Positions 1 through 38,824 of a stretch of 64,000 bases of DNA are shown here, piece by piece. Position 1 is the first letter of the stretch. Every line of letters begins with the position of its first letter. A program made the translations under genes and the position numbers. Origin of the DNA: Meandrina meandrites. Its lineage: Eukaryota; Cnidaria; Anthozoa; Scleractinia; Meandrinidae. A model generated the notes under the pieces. It was not told the DNA's origin. It saw only the letters and a program-made list of their open reading frames with translations, and made no database searches. The stretch spans positions 912,001 through 976,000 of the forward strand of contig OY855915.1 in NCBI GenBank assembly GCA_963693305.1, given 5' to 3'.

Positions 1-2
1 TC

Positions 3-1004
3 GACGCCTTAGAGGCCAAGGGACACTGGGCCACGCTCGAAGAGCTCTTGGAAGTCGTGAGGCGATACTTGCCGCGATACGAAAGCGTTCTGAAGTCATG
101 CAAGGATAATCCAGGTTCGATATCACCATTTGATTTATCTTTTGCTACCAAATTTCTCGCCGTATATTTGTTTATCAAGGTTAAAGGTTCGCGCCCAATG
201 ACATATCAGTATTTAACCGTTGAAATGGTGAAAAAAGCTAAAAGTAACGGTGGATTTATTGATCAGAAAATGTTCAAAACAGCAGGCAAATATGGCTTTG
301 ATTCTCTTTACCTGACCGAAACTAGCATGCAAGTGTTAGATGGCTACATCAATCACATTCGCCCTCTGCTCAAGCCGAACTGTGATTATGTTTTAGTAAC
401 GAGAAATGGAGGACAACATAACAAGCTAGGAGAACTGATGAGTAAACTGGTCTTCGATGCAACAGGCAAGTACGTTCATCCGACTCGCTATCGACAGATA
501 GTCGAGACGGCAAGTACTAGACATCTTAGCAGCAGTGCGCAGAGCACAATTTCCGAGGACCAGAAACACAGCTCAGTCGTGGCAAAGGTTCACTATCAAA
601 AACAACGGTCGCGCGAGGTCGCCAGCAAAGCGCACAAATGTTTGGAAAAACTACACGGCGACAAGGGAACAGAGCTAGAAATGGAAGTGCGCACGAGACT
701 TTCAGACAAGTCGACTTCTTCGCAAGAGCAAAATGATGACAAAAGCGATAGTTCTCCAACCGACGAGGACGAAACGAGCACTAAAACACGACATGCTAGA
801 CAAACAGAAATTGGCACAAGAAGAAAAAATGTGATGTTCACTCCAGAGGAAGACAGATATTTAAAAGTTGGACTCAAGCGACACGGCTTCGGTCAGTGGA
901 AAGCGATTCTCAGGGACCCCGATTTTCATTTTCACAAGGGAAGAACACCTAATTCTCTGCTGAGCCGGGCAGCAAGAAAATTTGGATCATATTCTAAAAG
1001 ATGA
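3..1004 (+). CDS. Tyrosine recombinase fused to Myb/SANT domain, 5' end outside window
   Basis: The reading frame is open to the first base, so the start lies upstream of the window. Numbering from the Leu codon at 48, the catalytic signature of a tyrosine recombinase can be followed: box I Arg in KGSRPMTY (about R49), a candidate Lys in the hairpin KTAGKYG, box II HPTR (H144, R147), the KHS histidine (H174) and the nucleophile in VHYQK (Y183). A low-complexity acidic and Ser-rich linker (about 215-255) leads to a Myb/SANT-like DNA-binding domain (about 260-313) with FTPEEDRYL, HGFGQWKAIL and a C-terminal third helix rich in Arg. This layout fits a Crypton-like or polinton-like-virus integrase. 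The enzyme would cut and rejoin element DNA, with the Myb domain giving target or end recognition; that role is inference. It is co-oriented with the cyclin-box ORF 145 bp downstream. Confidence 0.8.
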   Translation, partial: DALEAKGHWATLEELLEVVRRYLPRYESVLKSCKDNPGSISPFDLSFATKFLAVYLFIKVKGSRPMTYQYLTVEMVKKAKSNGGFIDQKMFKTAGKYGFDSLYLTETSMQVLDGYINHIRPLLKPNCDYVLVTRNGGQHNKLGELMSKLVFDATGKYVHPTRYRQIVETASTRHLSSSAQSTISEDQKHSSVVAKVHYQKQRSREVASKAHKCLEKLHGDKGTELEMEVRTRLSDKSTSSQEQNDDKSDSSPTDEDETSTKTRHARQTEIGTRRKNVMFTPEEDRYLKVGLKRHGFGQWKAILRDPDFHFHKGRTPNSLLSRAARKFGSYSKR

Positions 1005-1148
1005 GAGCATTATCCCAAGTTGGCAGTGATTGGTTATGGCTCCGCAAATCACAAACCGTTTTCGGTTCCAAAAGCATGTTTGGAAATGTTTCCTCGCTAC
1101 AAAATACGGACGACCTAGAACATTTTGCCTCTTTCTTTGCTGCGCCGA

Positions 1149-1529
1149 ATGAGAAAGATGGACAGGATTACAGAAAAACACCCCGCGCTTTCTTTGGGCG
1201 ATCTAAAATTTGCTGGAGAATTTTTGGAAGAAATTTGTGACTGCGACTACCCGAAAGAAACGGCTTTGTTGGCGGAAAGTCTGCTTTGGCGACACTTGAA
1301 CAAAACCTCGAACAGAAAAAGGTCTACATTTAAAGAGCTGATCCTGGCCTGTTTTTTTATCGCCATAAAACTGGAGGATCGCGATATTGCTAGAAATAGC
1401 CAATTCCTAGACACGATCTCGTCGCCGGTACAGCGATTGGACATTCTCCAAGAAGAACTTGGCGTGCTGCAATCAGTAAACTGGAGGCCCTTGGAACATT
1501 GGCGCATGATCGCAAAAGAGTCTCCTTAG
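1149..1529 (+). CDS. Short cyclin-box-like protein, 126 aa
   Basis: The start chosen is the first ATG in frame (GAATGAGAAAG). The protein has the helical pattern of the first cyclin fold: ETALLAESLLWRHLNK, then TFKELILACFFIAIKLED (matching the 'LQLLGATCLFIASKYEE'-type helix of cyclins) and LDILQEELGVLQSVNWRP (matching the 'EILKMELxVLxxLNW' helix). Only one cyclin fold is present, far shorter than cellular cyclins of 250 residues or more. It lies between the recombinase and the convergent helicase, so it appears to belong to the same element. A plausible job is to bind a host CDK or a cell-cycle regulator; this is inference. A second exon is possible but the frame ends in a normal stop. Confidence 0.6.
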   Translation: MRKMDRITEKHPALSLGDLKFAGEFLEEICDCDYPKETALLAESLLWRHLNKTSNRKRSTFKELILACFFIAIKLEDRDIARNSQFLDTISSPVQRLDILQEELGVLQSVNWRPLEHWRMIAKESP

Positions 1530-1839
1530 AAATCGAATCCGCCCAATTTGTAATAACTTAGACTACTAAAGACAATTCGTTAGCTGCTAACTTGACATTA
1601 ATTATTACCGTATACATGTATTACCACTTGTTCCCTTATGTATACATTTATTTCCTAGCATCACTCACGACTTGAAAAATACGATTCTAATTTCACGAAA
1701 GCAAGAACACTGAGTTTAATCTTTCGTTTCACAGAAAACGGATTTAATTAATGACATTGTCTGACTAATATCTCTCGTCAAGCATGGCCTACACGATTTA
1801 CCACATGTCTAATTAACTCTCACAAGATGTCCTCGAATG
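1530..1839. other. Convergent 3' intergenic stretch
   Basis: AT-rich spacer between the stop of the cyclin-box ORF and the stop of the helicase. A minus-strand AATAAA (TTTATT on the plus strand near 1646) could be the helicase poly(A) signal. No other feature seen. Confidence 0.4.
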
Positions 1840-4800
1840 TCACTCCTGGGTTGGTTGGAAAAAATGAGTTATTTGTCCTCTCTTGGAAACTTGACTACTC
1901 GGGCGGGCTGGCCGTTTCTTGGAATTGCGTCTGTGAATATCCTGGCTTGGGGGTCTCGATGTCGACGCTTGTGAGGACTGAGTGATGAACATGTCTTCTT
2001 CGTCGGAATCGTTTCCATCACAAGGAAACGGCAAAGGCGCCCATACACTCGTAACTCTTTGGGCCTGCTGTGTGGACAACCATTTCATGTCTATCGCTCG
2101 GCTTTTCCTCTCTGCGAGGACAAGTTTAGCGAGGCCTGGGGCATCTTCCCGCTTAAAGTTTAACTTCAGCGCTTCCGAAGTGACTCCTATCATGTACTGA
2201 AGGGCACGTTTTACTTCATCTTCCTTTTCTGCCTCCTCCTGCTCCTGTAGCTGTCGAAGCTCCTTCTCCTTTTCCCAAACCCATAGATTTTCGTAGTATT
2301 GGGCCGCCTTCTTTGCCAACATCTCTTGCTCTTGCTCTTTCTTTTTGGCGAAGTAATCCTCCCTTGACCGCTCAATAGTGGGATGGTATGGGCCCTCCAC
2401 CGTCTCAAGCAAGTGCGCATCCTCTTGTCTTATCATTCCGATCGAAATCCAGCGTTGTCTTGTCTCGTCTAGAATTCTCTCTCTAGTTCGCTCGGCTTCA
2501 TTTTCGATCTCTTTCGTAGCGCGTTTCACTCCGGACGCAATGAGCCCGAGTTGCCTCTTCTTTAGACTGTGGCATGGCTGCCGATCTTGAAGCTCCGAAA
2601 TCTTCTCAATGTTTCTTTCCCATCCACTAGGCTGAGAATCTGATTCGTCTTCTTCCTCCTCCATGCGGTCTTCTTCTGCCATTAGCTGCTCTTCTTCGCT
2701 CAACTCCTTGTCACTTTCACTATCATCCAGGTTCATGGTCATTATTCGGTTCTTTTCCTCCTCGTTGAAATCGCCCGGTCTTGCAACGGATCCAGGCGTC
2801 GGAGCTGGTAGTTCGTCTTCTGGAGTGCTGGCGACACTGCAAGCCCAGACAATGCAGTCCATTGCGTTTTCTCGCAACGCTTCCTGTACACCTGCCAATG
2901 GCGGAGAGCTTAGACTTTTGAAGTGGAACTTGCGAAGCCGGGCATCCATGGCGGCATTATGCTCGACACCGAAGTCCATCTCGGTTTGGCATGTGATGAA
3001 CATGGGGCACCGGATAACTGCTGGGGTAGATTTCTTGTATTTTCGGTCGTGGGCTGTTAGGCCACCTTGGGTTAGAATTTTCCAGTCGTCTGGTTCAAGC
3101 AGGCCGACATGAGCTTCATCCATGAAAATGACTTGGGTATTTTCGTCCACAAGACTCTTGTTAAATGCTTTTTGCTTGGTTACCATAGCAATGTATCTAA
3201 AAAACGAAAACGTAAAACAACTTCAATAAATTGCGCACGTTCATCAGAAAAATATGTCTTCAAATTCATTCTAAATTTAACACAGGTCTTTACGTGTGAA
3301 GAGCTTCCCACACCTAACAGCAAAGATACGCTCTTTTCTTATAGCTCAAGACCACTTGTCCGTTTTCATTTAGCGATGCGCACAATAAACACACTTGTAC
3401 TCCAGTATCCATCAAGTGGACAAGAGAGATGACATGTTTAAAAAAGATTTAGGTCCATTTTACCACGTAGCTTTTTATCCGTCGAAGACAGCAGGCTGGC
3501 TGCCGAAAGCTTATATTTTGTTTAACACATTTTCACCAGAGAACGCCTTTTTACAATTTTCTAATGAATCCTGCTATCGAATCTTCGATAATTTTTAAGA
3601 TACAAATAAGTAATTTACAATAGAAACAGCGCATACCTTGCAGGAACTATGCGAGTGATCGGCGTAAACAGACTGGTCTTGCCACTATTGGGTTCTCCGA
3701 TAAGACAAAGCACTTTTTCTTTGTGCTGCTTTATTCCATGGTTGAGTAGGCGAAGAAAATACTCGCAGAAGTGACTGACATCGGTTGGACTCAAGCTGTT
3801 TTGTAGGATTTCTTTGAAATATTTGGCATCTGGTTCCTTAGTGTGCTTGTATTGCAGAAATGCCCTGGGACTATCTTTGCCAACTTCTTTGATAGCGTTC
3901 TGGACGAATTTGCGTTCACTGATCGAGAAACACCATCCCTCCGACACCTCGATTAAGTCGAAATTGATTTTAAGCTGTGTAAAAAATTCGCAGTCGGGGT
4001 CGGCGAGGAACTTTTCCACCTTGCAGAAATTATTGACGATGATGTCCTTCAGCTGGTCGTTGTTCGCCAGGATTGACAGGAACCTTTTAGTGGAGCAAGC
4101 GTGTTCAAAGGTGAACTTCGATGCTGGGTTTCTCTTGAAAACTTCGCCTTTGTACAAAGCATAATCCAGTTTGGACATGGCTCGCGCAATTTTATTCAAC
4201 GCAACGACAACCGGGGACTTGCTTAGAGCTTTGCCGACGGGATGCTGAATTTCCGACTCTCTCGCTGTTTCTATACCGAATATGTCTAATACCAAGCCCG
4301 CTCTAATGAGTGCTGGGATCGCCCTGTTTTGTAATTCTGAAGCGAAAATGGGACTTGCAACTTGCAGGCGGAGCACACGTTCACTGCCGTGAATGGACGG
4401 AATTGGCTCTTCCAAAACCTGAGACTGTAGTTTCTCAAGGCAGTGCTGGAATGACAAATCAACTTTTCTCTGCAAGAAACTGTTATTATGATCCTTTACT
4501 GTGGTGCAAAGAGGGGTGACGACGTTCTCTTCCTTTCCTCTTGTGCAATCTTGTAGCGACTTTGCTGTCACTTCCATTTGCGTATCCAGAAGGGCCGAGT
4601 GAACGGGTATAGTTGACACTCTCACGCCATCCGGAGATTGTAGTGCTATCCAATAGGACATGGCAGGCCAGAAAATCATCTTCTTTCCTTGAGAAGTTCC
4701 TTCTTTTATTTCATCTTCTCCATCTTGTTCGTCATCTCCATCGTTTTCGTTCACTTTTTTCTCTACCACTGCTACAGAGGAAAAGAAAAAGGCCAGTCCT

Positions 4801-5287
4801 TTGATTTTCAATATGGCGTTGTCGCACTCGTCTCGTTTCGCACAAATTTGCGACCACAGATCATCAAGTTTTCCTGTTGCTTGGGGTGAATTGAAAGTCA
4901 CCTTTGCAGAGATAAGAGAACATTTTTCTTGCACGATAGGTAAGATCTTGCTTACAAGCGCACTTCGAATTTTCTGAAAGTGAAACAAATTCAGAATCAT
5001 AAATCTGAGTACTCTAACAAAAAAATCAGCTACAGCCTTGTTCTGTACCGGGTGATAGTGAGGGAGAGGGAGTTGGTACTTTTCTTTGATGACATAGCAG
5101 TGCCTGGCAACGGTGCGAAATATGTGTCAATCAAGCCATTTTGATTGACATAGCGCATTGGTACTGCGCACACTCAGTTGCCCGGCACCGCCCCTGTTCC
5201 CCATAAAACTAAAAACGCGTGCACTGCCAAGTTAAAAATCAAGGAACATACCTTACTGTTTAGTTGTCTAGCAGGAGCACTTGCCAT
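1840..5287 (-). CDS. SF3-type helicase of a mobile or virus-like element, three exons
   Basis: Exons in transcription order are 5287-5252, 5042-3637 and 3196-1840, together 932 codons plus stop. Introns have clean borders (AAG|GTATGT with a pyrimidine-rich tract ending CAG; AAG|GTATGC with TTTTTTAG) and the phases agree at both joints. Helicase motifs: Walker A GEPNSGKTSLF (about residue 461), Walker B VIFMDEAH (about 503), the Gly-Gly and Lys-rich stretch after it, motif C-like CPMFITCQ (about 544), and ARLRKFHF as an arginine-finger-like segment. This order and spacing is that of superfamily 3 replication helicases (parvovirus, papillomavirus and plasmid-like families). The N-terminal 450 residues are not recognised. 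The second half has a long acidic Glu/Asp block, a charged coiled-coil, a basic NLS-like patch, and ends in RGQITHFF, a PCNA-interacting-like motif. No internal stop or frameshift is seen. The first exon is the least certain part. Confidence 0.75.
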
Positions 5288-5339
5288 CTTGATGTCTACT
5301 TCTCAAATGGGAAGAGCATAACTTAGCGTGGTACTTTTA

Positions 5340-6090
5340 TAGCAATAGGGTTACCGAGCTCATTAGAATTCGCGCACTCTTTTAAGTTCCATCATTTTTT
5401 AACGACACACTGGCACAAAAATGCTCTTGAATATCGAATGTTACGCAAAACAATTTGTTCGCTTTTCATTTTAAAGAATAGAACACTGTTTTGGTCTCCT
5501 GGGCTCAAAAAGCTTCAATGAAAAAGTTTTCCAAGCTGTTTGGAATTCGCGCAACCTTTTGAGTTTCGTCATTTTTTAATGACACACTGGCACAAAAATG
5601 CTCTTGAATATCAGATGTTACGCTAAACAATTTGTTCGCTTTTCATTTTAAAGAATGGAACACTGTTTTGATCTCCTGGGCTCAAATAACTTCAATGAAA
5701 AAGGCTGCCCAACTCTTTGGCACTCTTTTGAGTTCCATTACTTTTTAATGACACACTGGTGCAAAAATGCTCTTGCATATGGAATGTTACGCAAATCAAT
5801 TTGTTCGCTTTTTATTTTAAAGAATGGAACACTGTTTTGGTCTCCTGGGCTTAAATAACTCCAATGAAAGGGGTAACCAAGCTGTTTGGAATTCGCGCAA
5901 TCTTTTGGATTCATCATTTTTTAATGACACACTGGGGCAAAAATGCTATTGAATTAACGTCACGCAACACAATTTGTTCGCTTTTTACTTTTAAAGTTCG
6001 CTTTTAAGTTTTGTTCGCTTTTTAGTTTAAAGAATGAATATGTTTTTTCTTCCATGGATTCAAATAACTTCGATGAAAATATTCTTTACT
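5340..6090. repeat. Tandem repeat of about 175 bp, four copies
   Basis: The phrase GACACACTGG followed by CAAAAATGCT recurs near 5405, 5582, 5750 and 5925, giving periods of about 178, 168 and 175 bp. Each copy also carries AATTTGTTCGCTTTT and GAACACTGTTTTGGTCTCC. The last copy is degenerate, with a short internal duplication of the TTTGTTCGC segment near 6000. ORFs here are by-products of the repeat. Confidence 0.85.
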
Positions 6091-6199
6091 AAGCCTTTTG
6101 TACTATAAAGATGCATTCTTCTATCAAAAGCAGTTCTAGTTGTTTTATTAAGAAAGGTGTTAAACATTACAATGCGCAAAACCGTCCTTGTACAAAGAG

Positions 6200-7385
<1,186 letters not shown>

Positions 7386-7389
7386 TTTC

Positions 7390-7824
7390 AGTTTAAATGA
7401 AAGTATTAAATAAAATGTCTCTCGTTTCCATCAAATCTGTAAGATCCCCCCCTTTCTAGTGATGTGTCTTAGAATAGTTTGAAGTTTTCAGTTTTATCTG
7501 CCCGCGAAACAGTGTGTATTTCTTTTTATCTGCGGCGCATTTCATGGATTTGGTGAAAATCGAAGTCGACCTGCTAGGTTGTCATTAAAAGGAACAATTA
7601 GACCTCTTTTTTGTGTTCCCTTACTTCAGATGGCAAACCACAAACTACTGCTGCTTAAATTGATGTACAAATCAAATTTAAATTAGCAGCCGTGAAAATC
7701 GCATGTTCACCAGATGCGTTATCAGACTTAAGGGTTGAAACGAGAATAAATCGGCTAAATGCAGGGATGAAGTTCAAAGTTTGAAAGGGAACATAATTTT
7801 TGGGAAACGATCATTATCATTATC

Positions 7825-36821: not shown

Positions 36822-38824
36822 CAGTGCGGACACTCGAACCAGCCAAAAGCTTTATTTTCACTTTATTTGTCTTTTTTATCACTTATTTTATTACTTTTTT
36901 TAGAACTAGCCAATCACAGAGGCGAGGCGATGCAACGGCCGAGACATTTTTTTCTGCCTTTTTCCACGTTATTTTTAAAGTGACGCCGTGATTTCACACA
37001 ACGGCGGAGACATTTTTTCATTTTTTTCCGCGTTTTTTATCAATCATGGTCGGCTTCCAATACTCGCCTTTCGGCTAACAATAACTTGCCTGGAGAGGGG
37101 AAGAAGGCATCGGGACCTTCTTGATCTAAACCCTCTATTTTCGAATTGTGTCGAGAGACGCTCCAGTTTCAGGCCTGGAGATAGAGATTTTAACCATGAG
37201 TGAACCTCTGACGGACCCAATACGGAAGAGTCTGAAGACCCAATGGATTTCGCCATCTTCTTTCAACACTCGTGTTTTTCCCACCATGGGGGCTATAAAT
37301 AGCTTGCGTGCAAGAGATCTGGAGATAAGCTGTCAATCATAACGTTACAAGTAACCGCAATTCCTAAAATATGCAACTGAATTTGAAGCATCTATTTTGG
37401 AAACAGCTTCGCCAATTGCTATTTCGGTCTCATTGAGAGTGAGCAATGTATTTTGTTTGAGGTAACATTTTACCTGGTTGAAGCAAAACTCGCAGGTATT
37501 TAGGTGCGGCAAGTACGAAGGCTGAAACAAAAGATTGATACCATGTTCTTGAAGGATATCCCTCAGTAACGGTTCGACTTGGTGTCCGTGGTGAAATCCA
37601 CAATTATCCATTATTATACAGTCACCGAGTTCCAATATTGGTGAGCCATCTGCTCTTTCTACTGCTAAAGCCTCATCGAAAAAGTTGAGCATTTCCATTC
37701 CATTAGAAGCGCCCCGTAAAATATTGTAGTAATCAACTCCTTGTATTGAGTGTAGCCTGTGTAGCAGGTTTAGCGTGTAGTTTGCGTTCGAGGCGTAGCG
37801 CTGGAATTCAATGGCAGGCTCGCCGATATATGAATTACCATATACACGATTTCCTGAAGTAATTTTGACACCGGACTCATCGAAAAAGTGAAGTGTAGTA
37901 CAGTCTAGTTGCGCGATTTGATCAAGAAAAATATCTTTATAGTTAATGACAATGACTTCGTCGGTACTTCCGTGAGTTTTTTCTTCGTCATAAAACAATC
38001 CTCCCGAATGCATTTTTTTTATTGCGCTTTGTGATGGCAAAAGATGAGGTGGCGAAACTCCATCCAGCAACAAGCGCTGTTGAAGTTCTGATGTGTACGT
38101 GCTGGGCTTGCATAATTTCTCAGATTCGATGTAATCGACAACGTCTTGTGTAACAACATTACGAGTCGCTAATTTTCGCGTCGGAGGAAGAGACGTGTTG
38201 TTGTCCACATAGTTGTCAACGACCTTATTTACATAGCCAATACTAACTCGCGCTGTGCCTGAAATTTGTCTTTGGGAAAATCCCTGGTGGTGGAGATCAA
38301 GAATTCTTTCTCGATAAATGTTTGGTAAAGCGCTTCCATTGTCGTAGATGCCTTGTTGCTGATTAATCCTGAGATTACACTGACCTAAATATCTCAAAAC
38401 AAATAATAGAAAATCATTTTTTCGTTCCTCAAAAGAGCTTCAATTCAAAAAAATATCTAAAAATGCATCTGTTTAGATGAAAGTAGTACTTGCTAGTATA
38501 ATTTGCTGGAGCGTAGGCCATTTCGCAGTGAACTGAAACTCGAGTCTGACTTCAGTGAGGGCAAATGAATTCCCGCCAAAAAAAATCCGCTAACGTTGTT
38601 TAGAATACAGGTATAACCGCGTACCGAAAAGCGTCTCAAACGTCGCGTGGGACAATGAAAACACGGAAAAAAGAAGAAAAAAATGTCTGTGCCATTGCTT
38701 CGCTTCACGAATGTGATTGGTTATTTCTGGAAAAAATGTAAAAATAACTACAGAATAAGTGAAAATAAAGTACAAATAAAGTTAAAAAAAAGCCATAGCG
38801 TTCATGGTTCGAGTGTCCGCACTG
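36822..38824 (-). mobile_element. Tc1/mariner-like transposon, 2.0 kb
   Basis: Terminal inverted repeats CAGTGCGGACACTCGAACCA and TGGTTCGAGTGTCCGCACTG lie inside a TA duplication (36820-36821 and 38825-38826). The next internal blocks (CTTTATTTTCACTTTATTTG and its reverse complement) extend the repeats. It encodes the transposase at 37345-38397 and is the likely parent of the MITE at 20.37 kb. Confidence 0.9.
37345..38397 (-). CDS. Tc1/mariner-like DDE transposase
   Basis: Residue numbers are from the first codon of the open frame. An N-terminal helix-turn-helix (about 28-60, GFSQRQISGTARVSIGYVNK) is followed by a DDE domain with HFFDESGV (D173), IIMDNCGFHHG (D264) and YLPHLNTCEF (E303), leaving 38 residues between the last two acidic residues. 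The first codon is TTG, not ATG; the true start is probably upstream across a short intron (TTTAG acceptor at about 38388) or is lost. No internal stop, so the copy may be recently active. Confidence 0.85.
   Translation of the reverse strand: MRYLGQCNLRINQQQGIYDNGSALPNIYRERILDLHHQGFSQRQISGTARVSIGYVNKVVDNYVDNNTSLPPTRKLATRNVVTQDVVDYIESEKLCKPSTYTSELQQRLLLDGVSPPHLLPSQSAIKKMHSGGLFYDEEKTHGSTDEVIVINYKDIFLDQIAQLDCTTLHFFDESGVKITSGNRVYGNSYIGEPAIEFQRYASNANYTLNLLHRLHSIQGVDYYNILRGASNGMEMLNFFDEALAVERADGSPILELGDCIIMDNCGFHHGHQVEPLLRDILQEHGINLLFQPSYLPHLNTCEFCFNQVKCYLKQNTLLTLNETEIAIGEAVSKIDASNSVAYFRNCGYL

Follow-up and report, generated by a model that had tools for sequence, protein, structure and literature searches.

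What kind of genetic unit places a tyrosine recombinase, a cyclin-box protein and a viral-type helicase side by side in a coral genome? The question was raised by a 64,000-nucleotide stretch of the Meandrina meandrites genome (GenBank assembly GCA_963693305.1, contig OY855915.1), referred to here as the window and corresponding to C13:912001-976000 in an assembly of 551 Mb and 56 contigs. An initial annotation had assigned positions 1..5340 to an element encoding a recombinase with a Myb domain, a cyclin and a spliced superfamily 3 (SF3) helicase. We conclude that the window probably carries most of a capsid-less anthozoan DNA mobile element which would integrate by its tyrosine recombinase and encode its own replication initiator. 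A single repeated unit with constant ends is evident from the sequence; its recombinase and SF3 helicase frames are open, its copies are numerous and it has spread recently. The core of this element is the recombinase with a convergent helicase, not the trio of genes.

The ends were mapped by copy comparison. The window copy and its left neighbouring DNA were used as the reference and compared with 19 other copies of the recombinase region, which were selected by hand among 45 other matches listed for the genome; six of these were later lengthened rightwards. Numbers of loci drawn from the listed recombinase and helicase matches are to be read as 'at least'. The element is 9,540 bp long, with sharp ends at window positions −1730 (C13:910270) and 7809. 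The initial annotation was right that the three genes belong to a single animal mobile element: all of them lie within one repeated unit with common ends. Neither of the two bounds that it gave is an end of the element. The left end, ATACATTCCCCAAAATCGATGAC, was seen in 17 of 20 loci (the window copy included) and is preceded by TCAT in all 17. The right end, TTTTGGGAAACG, was read in nine of the 20 and is followed by ATC each time; at the remaining loci it lies past the fetched stretch or is too diverged for the pattern. The flanks vary and many are ATC or ATT microsatellites; TC is common to both ends, often within ATCAT. A pattern scan of the genome with at most two mismatches gave 32 left ends, and the reversed control gave none.

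Joining the ends head to tail would give TTTTGGGAAACG-ATCATATA-CATTCCCCAAAA, in which 12-bp arms flank 8 bp. The arms are inverted and imperfect (Table 1); random 12-mer pairs from the window reach the same agreement at a frequency of 0.000125, an optimistic figure given that the arms were selected post hoc from known ends. Inverted arms of 11–13 bp around a spacer of 6–8 bp are given for a typical tyrosine recombinase site in the accessible part of PMC3212892, and the joined ends would make a classic site of this type. Integration through the recombinase, as first proposed, fits these ends and is well supported as a reading of them. Two observations on neighbouring ends were made separately. 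In L012 (1137-1170) a right-end-like stretch of 27–34 bp touches the left end with no spacer, a natural head-to-tail junction; beyond this stretch, the 1.17-kb flank showed nothing else recognizable as belonging to a neighbouring element. At C13:24.06-24.23 Mb, a span of about 170 kb holds five left ends along with several pieces of the recombinase, one of the left ends lying about 100 bp beyond the right end of L025.

Copies L010-L014 align across most of the element. The nearest, L011, is 99.5% identical (−1811 to 6026) and movement has therefore been recent. In a second branch, made up of L017-L025 and L027, identity is approximately 88–91% and the alignment extends only to about window position 988, close to where the recombinase ends; L016 and L026 are mosaics. 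Using tblastn, a full or partial helicase was found downstream of, and on the opposite strand to, the recombinase at 20 of 20 loci. Two more diverged loci, L035 and L036, were chosen from the listed helicase matches because none of the listed recombinase matches lay near them; their helicases are 64 and 69% identical in exon 2, and each locus has a frame of 578–579 aa that is 61–62% identical to the full-size recombinase P0061. The pair is thus present, with some partial copies, at 22 of 22 loci (the window copy, the 19 others, L035 and L036). In a separate count, 40 of 46 recombinase matches were taken as loci, omitting six C13 fragments (about 230 bp long in three cases and 51 bp in the other three), and 97 helicase matches were listed; a convergent helicase lay within 8 kb at 26 of the 40. 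Random placement gave a mean of 0.165 convergent pairs and a maximum of one in 200 trials, with contig sizes rounded, those of C5, C11 and C14 approximate and small contigs omitted.

Between the two branches, the helicases are saturated at silent sites and the recombinases are only about 0.27 apart, and the helicases of L016 and L026 are hybrids with one half from each branch. The element therefore recombines as modules. Named protein relatives are from Nematostella, Actinostola, Oculina, Porites and Montipora. In other genomes, among the matches listed, helicase and recombinase fell on same-size contigs of 717,496 and 167,208 bases (Actinostola) and on a 32-Mb Oculina contig, and cyclin and recombinase on contigs of 550,198 and 921,035 bases; no such case was listed for helicase and cyclin. 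These coincidences are weak evidence of linkage, as the contigs are long and the genes repeated.

The recombinase is open across window positions 3-1004, and the full-size protein P0061 (571 aa) is 100% identical across this part. Residues of C2H2 type lie close to its N-terminus, and its C-terminus carries a Myb domain. The R-K-H-R-H-Y set noticed at the outset is conserved in 115–119 of 120 homologues (R302 in 118, K330 in 119, H397 in 116, R400 in 115, H427 in 118 and Y436 in 115), and includes the R-H-R-Y catalytic set of tyrosine recombinases. The top-ranked structural match of the predicted fold is Xer recombinase. The Myb/SANT assignment also held: PF00249 matches with 28.3 bits (cut-off 24.4), the domain is present in 13 of 14 members and it is nearest to the telomere-repeat-binding factors. 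The ratio of nonsynonymous to synonymous substitution rates (dN/dS) against L017-L027 is 0.13–0.22.

The helicase faces the recombinase and the cyclin. Its three exons, joined through GT-AG introns, give a single open frame of 909 aa, in agreement with the initial splice model. Walker A, Walker B, B-prime and motif C are all legible in the alignment, and the predicted fold of homologue P0013 is that of an SF3 helicase, matching adeno-associated virus Rep68, B19 NS1 and papillomavirus E1. SF3 motif C ends in N; in this helicase it terminates in Q. Profile matches of the window exons are weak (Parvo_NS1, E = 0.076, below the cut-off); with E values up to 0.1 allowed, 24 of 46 homologues matched PPV_E1_C (best 2.5e-8) and 25 matched Parvo_NS1. 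A sequence profile search of the PDB returned no SF3 structure, only P-loop matches with E values of 0.32 or worse. The N-terminus forms a mixed alpha/beta domain in the homologue model, folded within the whole protein, and no HUH pair was seen among residues conserved at 85%. Of 60 homologues, 40 have a PCNA-box-like motif within their final 30 residues, against a mean of 0.32 for shuffled sequences. In L035 (4853-7624, minus strand) exon 2 to the stop is one 924-aa stop-to-stop frame; the L035 lineage seems to lack the intron that separates exons 2 and 3 in the window copy.

The cyclin-fold frame of the initial annotation was recovered above the Pfam cut-off (Table 1). In a profile search cyclin E1 was nearest (1.4e-6), followed by V-CYCLIN (0.0013). 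Its presence was scored by tblastn, at 20 loci with one query and then with 22 cyclins at E 1e-3, and at two loci separately; it was found at seven of 22 loci, the window copy and L010-L015. The trio thus recurs at six more loci (nearly complete in L010-L014, with helicase pieces only in L015), contrary to the refuting condition of the initial annotation, under which the three genes would never be found together elsewhere. It was rejected as the defining unit, the role first given to it: that role falls to the recombinase and helicase, and the cyclin, which 15 of 22 loci lack, belongs to some copies only.

That absence, together with the helicase modules swapped or truncated in many copies, speaks for a cut-and-paste transposon of the Crypton type, its helicase aiding excision or repair rather than replication and its cyclin being no more than a captured passenger. 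The cyclin itself argues against this. Its 22 homologues are 54–98% identical, and six of them, at 57–66% identity, are retained as frames of 117–121 aa; a lysine is kept in 17 of the 20 homologues with a residue at that position (two gaps) and a glutamate in 15 of the 22 (five gaps), both of which we take to be cyclin-dependent kinase (CDK) contacts. The helicase, moreover, combines an SF3 core with the PCNA-box-like tail, and we consider a cut-and-paste transposon unlikely. In one branch of the element the cyclin could act on the host cell cycle, as was originally suggested.

Outside the genes, the only ATG-initiated frames of at least 60 aa on either strand are of 60, 67 and 93 aa, and a stop-to-stop listing adds only antisense, repeat and microsatellite frames of at most 181 aa. 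Judged from frame length, the leftover frames, which were not profile-searched, are too small for a capsid, a polymerase or a reverse transcriptase. This bears on a second explanation, an endogenized or decayed DNA virus of parvovirus, papillomavirus or polinton-like type that lost its capsid and spreads as a provirus. The helicase is indeed of the Rep/NS1/E1 kind, and sea-anemone data yielded, on assembly, an E1-like replicase accompanied by a capsid-like gene, according to the available part of PMC11071296. However, the element holds no extra frame of capsid size, short peptide patterns found no relative in viral contigs and the diverged L035 and L036 keep the recombinase–helicase pair, so that we hold a viral origin of this kind to be improbable. 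Prokaryote contigs, also scanned with short peptide patterns, gave no relatives, and a PHROGs search gave nothing convincing. The polinton-like parallel drawn in the initial annotation was abandoned on length, the remaining frames leaving no room for capsid or packaging genes, and a DIRS/Ngaro retrotransposon was rejected, as no frame in the element has the size for reverse transcriptase and RNase H. Separate repeats or host genes side by side by chance, which the separable behaviour of the cyclin alone might suggest, are excluded for practical purposes by the same ends and gene order on many chromosomes.

Two repeat regions lie between the helicase start and the right end (Table 1). CTCCGCCATCTCC has seven copies with starts at 6359-7339 (two mismatches allowed) and none in window positions 8001-64000; it is found in 15 of 16 loci examined, with 1–8 copies each. 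In L020, L025 and L027 other microsatellites (TC, AG, TA and TCTT) occupy this region. The palindromic CTCCGCCATCTCC region is a candidate replication origin, and replication of the element by the helicase would fit the fold, the tail and the repeat clusters. Noted separately were a 66-bp tandem repeat, in roughly 20 copies, that lies about 4 kb to the left of the element (C13:904570-905930; L009 70-1430), and in L028 a 63-bp array upstream of the recombinase (897-1846).

For the capsid-less mobile element that we favour, the following cycle may be proposed. The recombinase would cut both ends and join them into a circle, the site being the inverted 12-bp arms around ATCATATA, and the Myb domain and zinc finger would keep it on the DNA. 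The circle would insert at a TC dinucleotide, often inside an ATC or ATT microsatellite. The helicase would bind the repeat clusters left of the right end and unwind the DNA, and its tail might recruit host PCNA and polymerase, leading to a gain in copies. In one branch, the cyclin E-like box could bind a host CDK and favour S phase. More broadly, anthozoans may host a large class of capsid-less integrating replicons ('animal plasmids') that a recombinase moves and a PCNA-borrowing SF3 helicase copies, with modules swapped and an S-phase cyclin in one branch; we offer this tentatively, as a possibility slightly short of an even chance.

Several results weigh against this reading. Fourteen of the 40 recombinase loci have no convergent helicase in the 8-kb count; at four of them (L015, L018, L019 and L028) tblastn picks up a whole or partial helicase, and the other ten lie outside the tblastn set. 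Many copies are broken, deleted or have a partial helicase, the cyclin is missing from most loci and the right end is legible at fewer than half of them. Among the domain families anticipated in the initial annotation, those for cyclin and Myb were found, but the helicase fell below the cut-off in the window copy, and for the recombinase Pfam gave no integrase, DUF3504 or GCR1_C match at E up to 0.1 in 14 members. The Xer-like top match has a root-mean-square deviation of 12.8 across 204 residues, and the model has a mean predicted local distance difference test (pLDDT) score of 64.9, with values below 50 at 385-431, covering the H-R pair. Among the close copies L010-L014, with few changes, dN/dS is 0.32–0.86 for the helicase, and values for the recombinase in close copies reach 0.67. 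The tail motif is lacking in 20 of 60 homologues (several of which are fragments), the 177-bp array was found in the reference and close copies and not in five other loci scanned, and the 13-mer CTCCGCCATCTCC is absent from L028; the suggested origin and PCNA recruitment are drawn from motifs.

In its integration the element comes closest to Cryptons, and in its helicase to the E1/NS1/Rep initiators. With Cryptons (CryptonA) the element shares a tyrosine recombinase as the only integrase, the lack of reverse transcriptase and the occurrence of shortened copies, and for Cryptons a circular intermediate has been proposed (PMC3212892, accessible part). The same part of that source describes animal Cryptons without a C-terminal domain or terminal repeats and with the recombinase as the sole gene; from this published description the element is set apart by its zinc-finger residues, C-terminal Myb domain, SF3 helicase, occasional cyclin and recognizable arms. 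Polinton-like viruses and virophages likewise unite a recombinase and an SF3 helicase in one integrating element, but they have a module for capsid and packaging, and in several of them the helicase is part of a fusion with a polymerase-like domain (PMC4642659, as far as available); none of these was seen here, and among Pfam families the helicase is nearest to Rep/NS1/E1. Papillomavirus E1, parvovirus NS1/Rep and the RepE1 cressviruses of sea anemones share the SF3 fold, E1-like replicases having been reported in anemone data sets (PMC11071296, available part). Unlike these viruses, the element has no capsid frame, and its helicase is tied to a recombinase in a repeated unit with copies that are still open. 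The cyclin box recalls the viral cyclins of herpesvirus type, also carried by selfish elements, but it is a single box closer to cyclin E1 and resides on a transposon-like element.

We know of no other transposon with its own cyclin. No such element was found described in the literature; most subscription papers, preprints and Repbase lay outside the search, and the element may have been described without a name or solely in a database. The animal tyrosine-recombinase DNA transposons described in the accessible part of PMC3212892 encode the recombinase only, and how they multiply is therefore left open. With a recombinase and a viral-type initiator bearing a PCNA-binding-like tail in one animal element, the question becomes directly testable. 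The element blurs the boundary between transposon, plasmid and small DNA virus, and suggests a path for E1/NS1-like helicases between viruses and hosts.

Table 1. Features of the element in the window (positions relative to the first nucleotide of the window).
Feature	Position	Strand	Basis
Right 7.8 kb of the 9,540-bp element	1..7809	.	Alignment to 19 copies; left 1.73 kb outside the window
Tyrosine recombinase, C-terminal 333 aa of 571	3..1004	+	Catalytic residues, Xer-like predicted fold, dN/dS
Myb/SANT domain of the recombinase	837..968	+	PF00249; TRF1/TRF2 by profile and predicted fold
Cyclin-box protein, 126 aa	1149..1529	+	PF00134, 34.0 bits (cut-off 23)
Helicase exon 3: Walker B, B-prime, motif C, C-terminal region, stop	1840..3196	-	Alignment; homologue model
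RGQITHFF, PCNA-interacting-peptide-like tail	1858..1881	-	Motif in last 30 aa, homologue count
Helicase exon 2: N-terminal domain and Walker A	3637..4973	-	Splice reading; homologue model
Helicase exon 1, start codon at 5287	5252..5287	-	Splice reading; similar N-terminus in homologue P0021
177-bp repeat, 3.6 copies, beside the helicase start; candidate promoter/origin	5366..5996	.	Tandem Repeats Finder, repeat search
Palindromic region, CTCCGCCATCTCC in both orientations around a TAC/TAG microsatellite; candidate replication origin	6329..7380	.	
Right recombination arm TTTTGGGAAACG, then ATC(AT)	7798..7809	.	ATC at 9/9 right ends; 10/12 match to inverted left arm

Elsewhere in the window, a 364-aa frame on the minus strand (37345-38439) contains a near-complete Paired box (PF00292, 61 bits) and a DDE_3 domain (PF13358, 50.8 bits). 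It encodes a transposase with a PAX-type DNA-binding domain, presumably of the Tc1/IS630-like kind.
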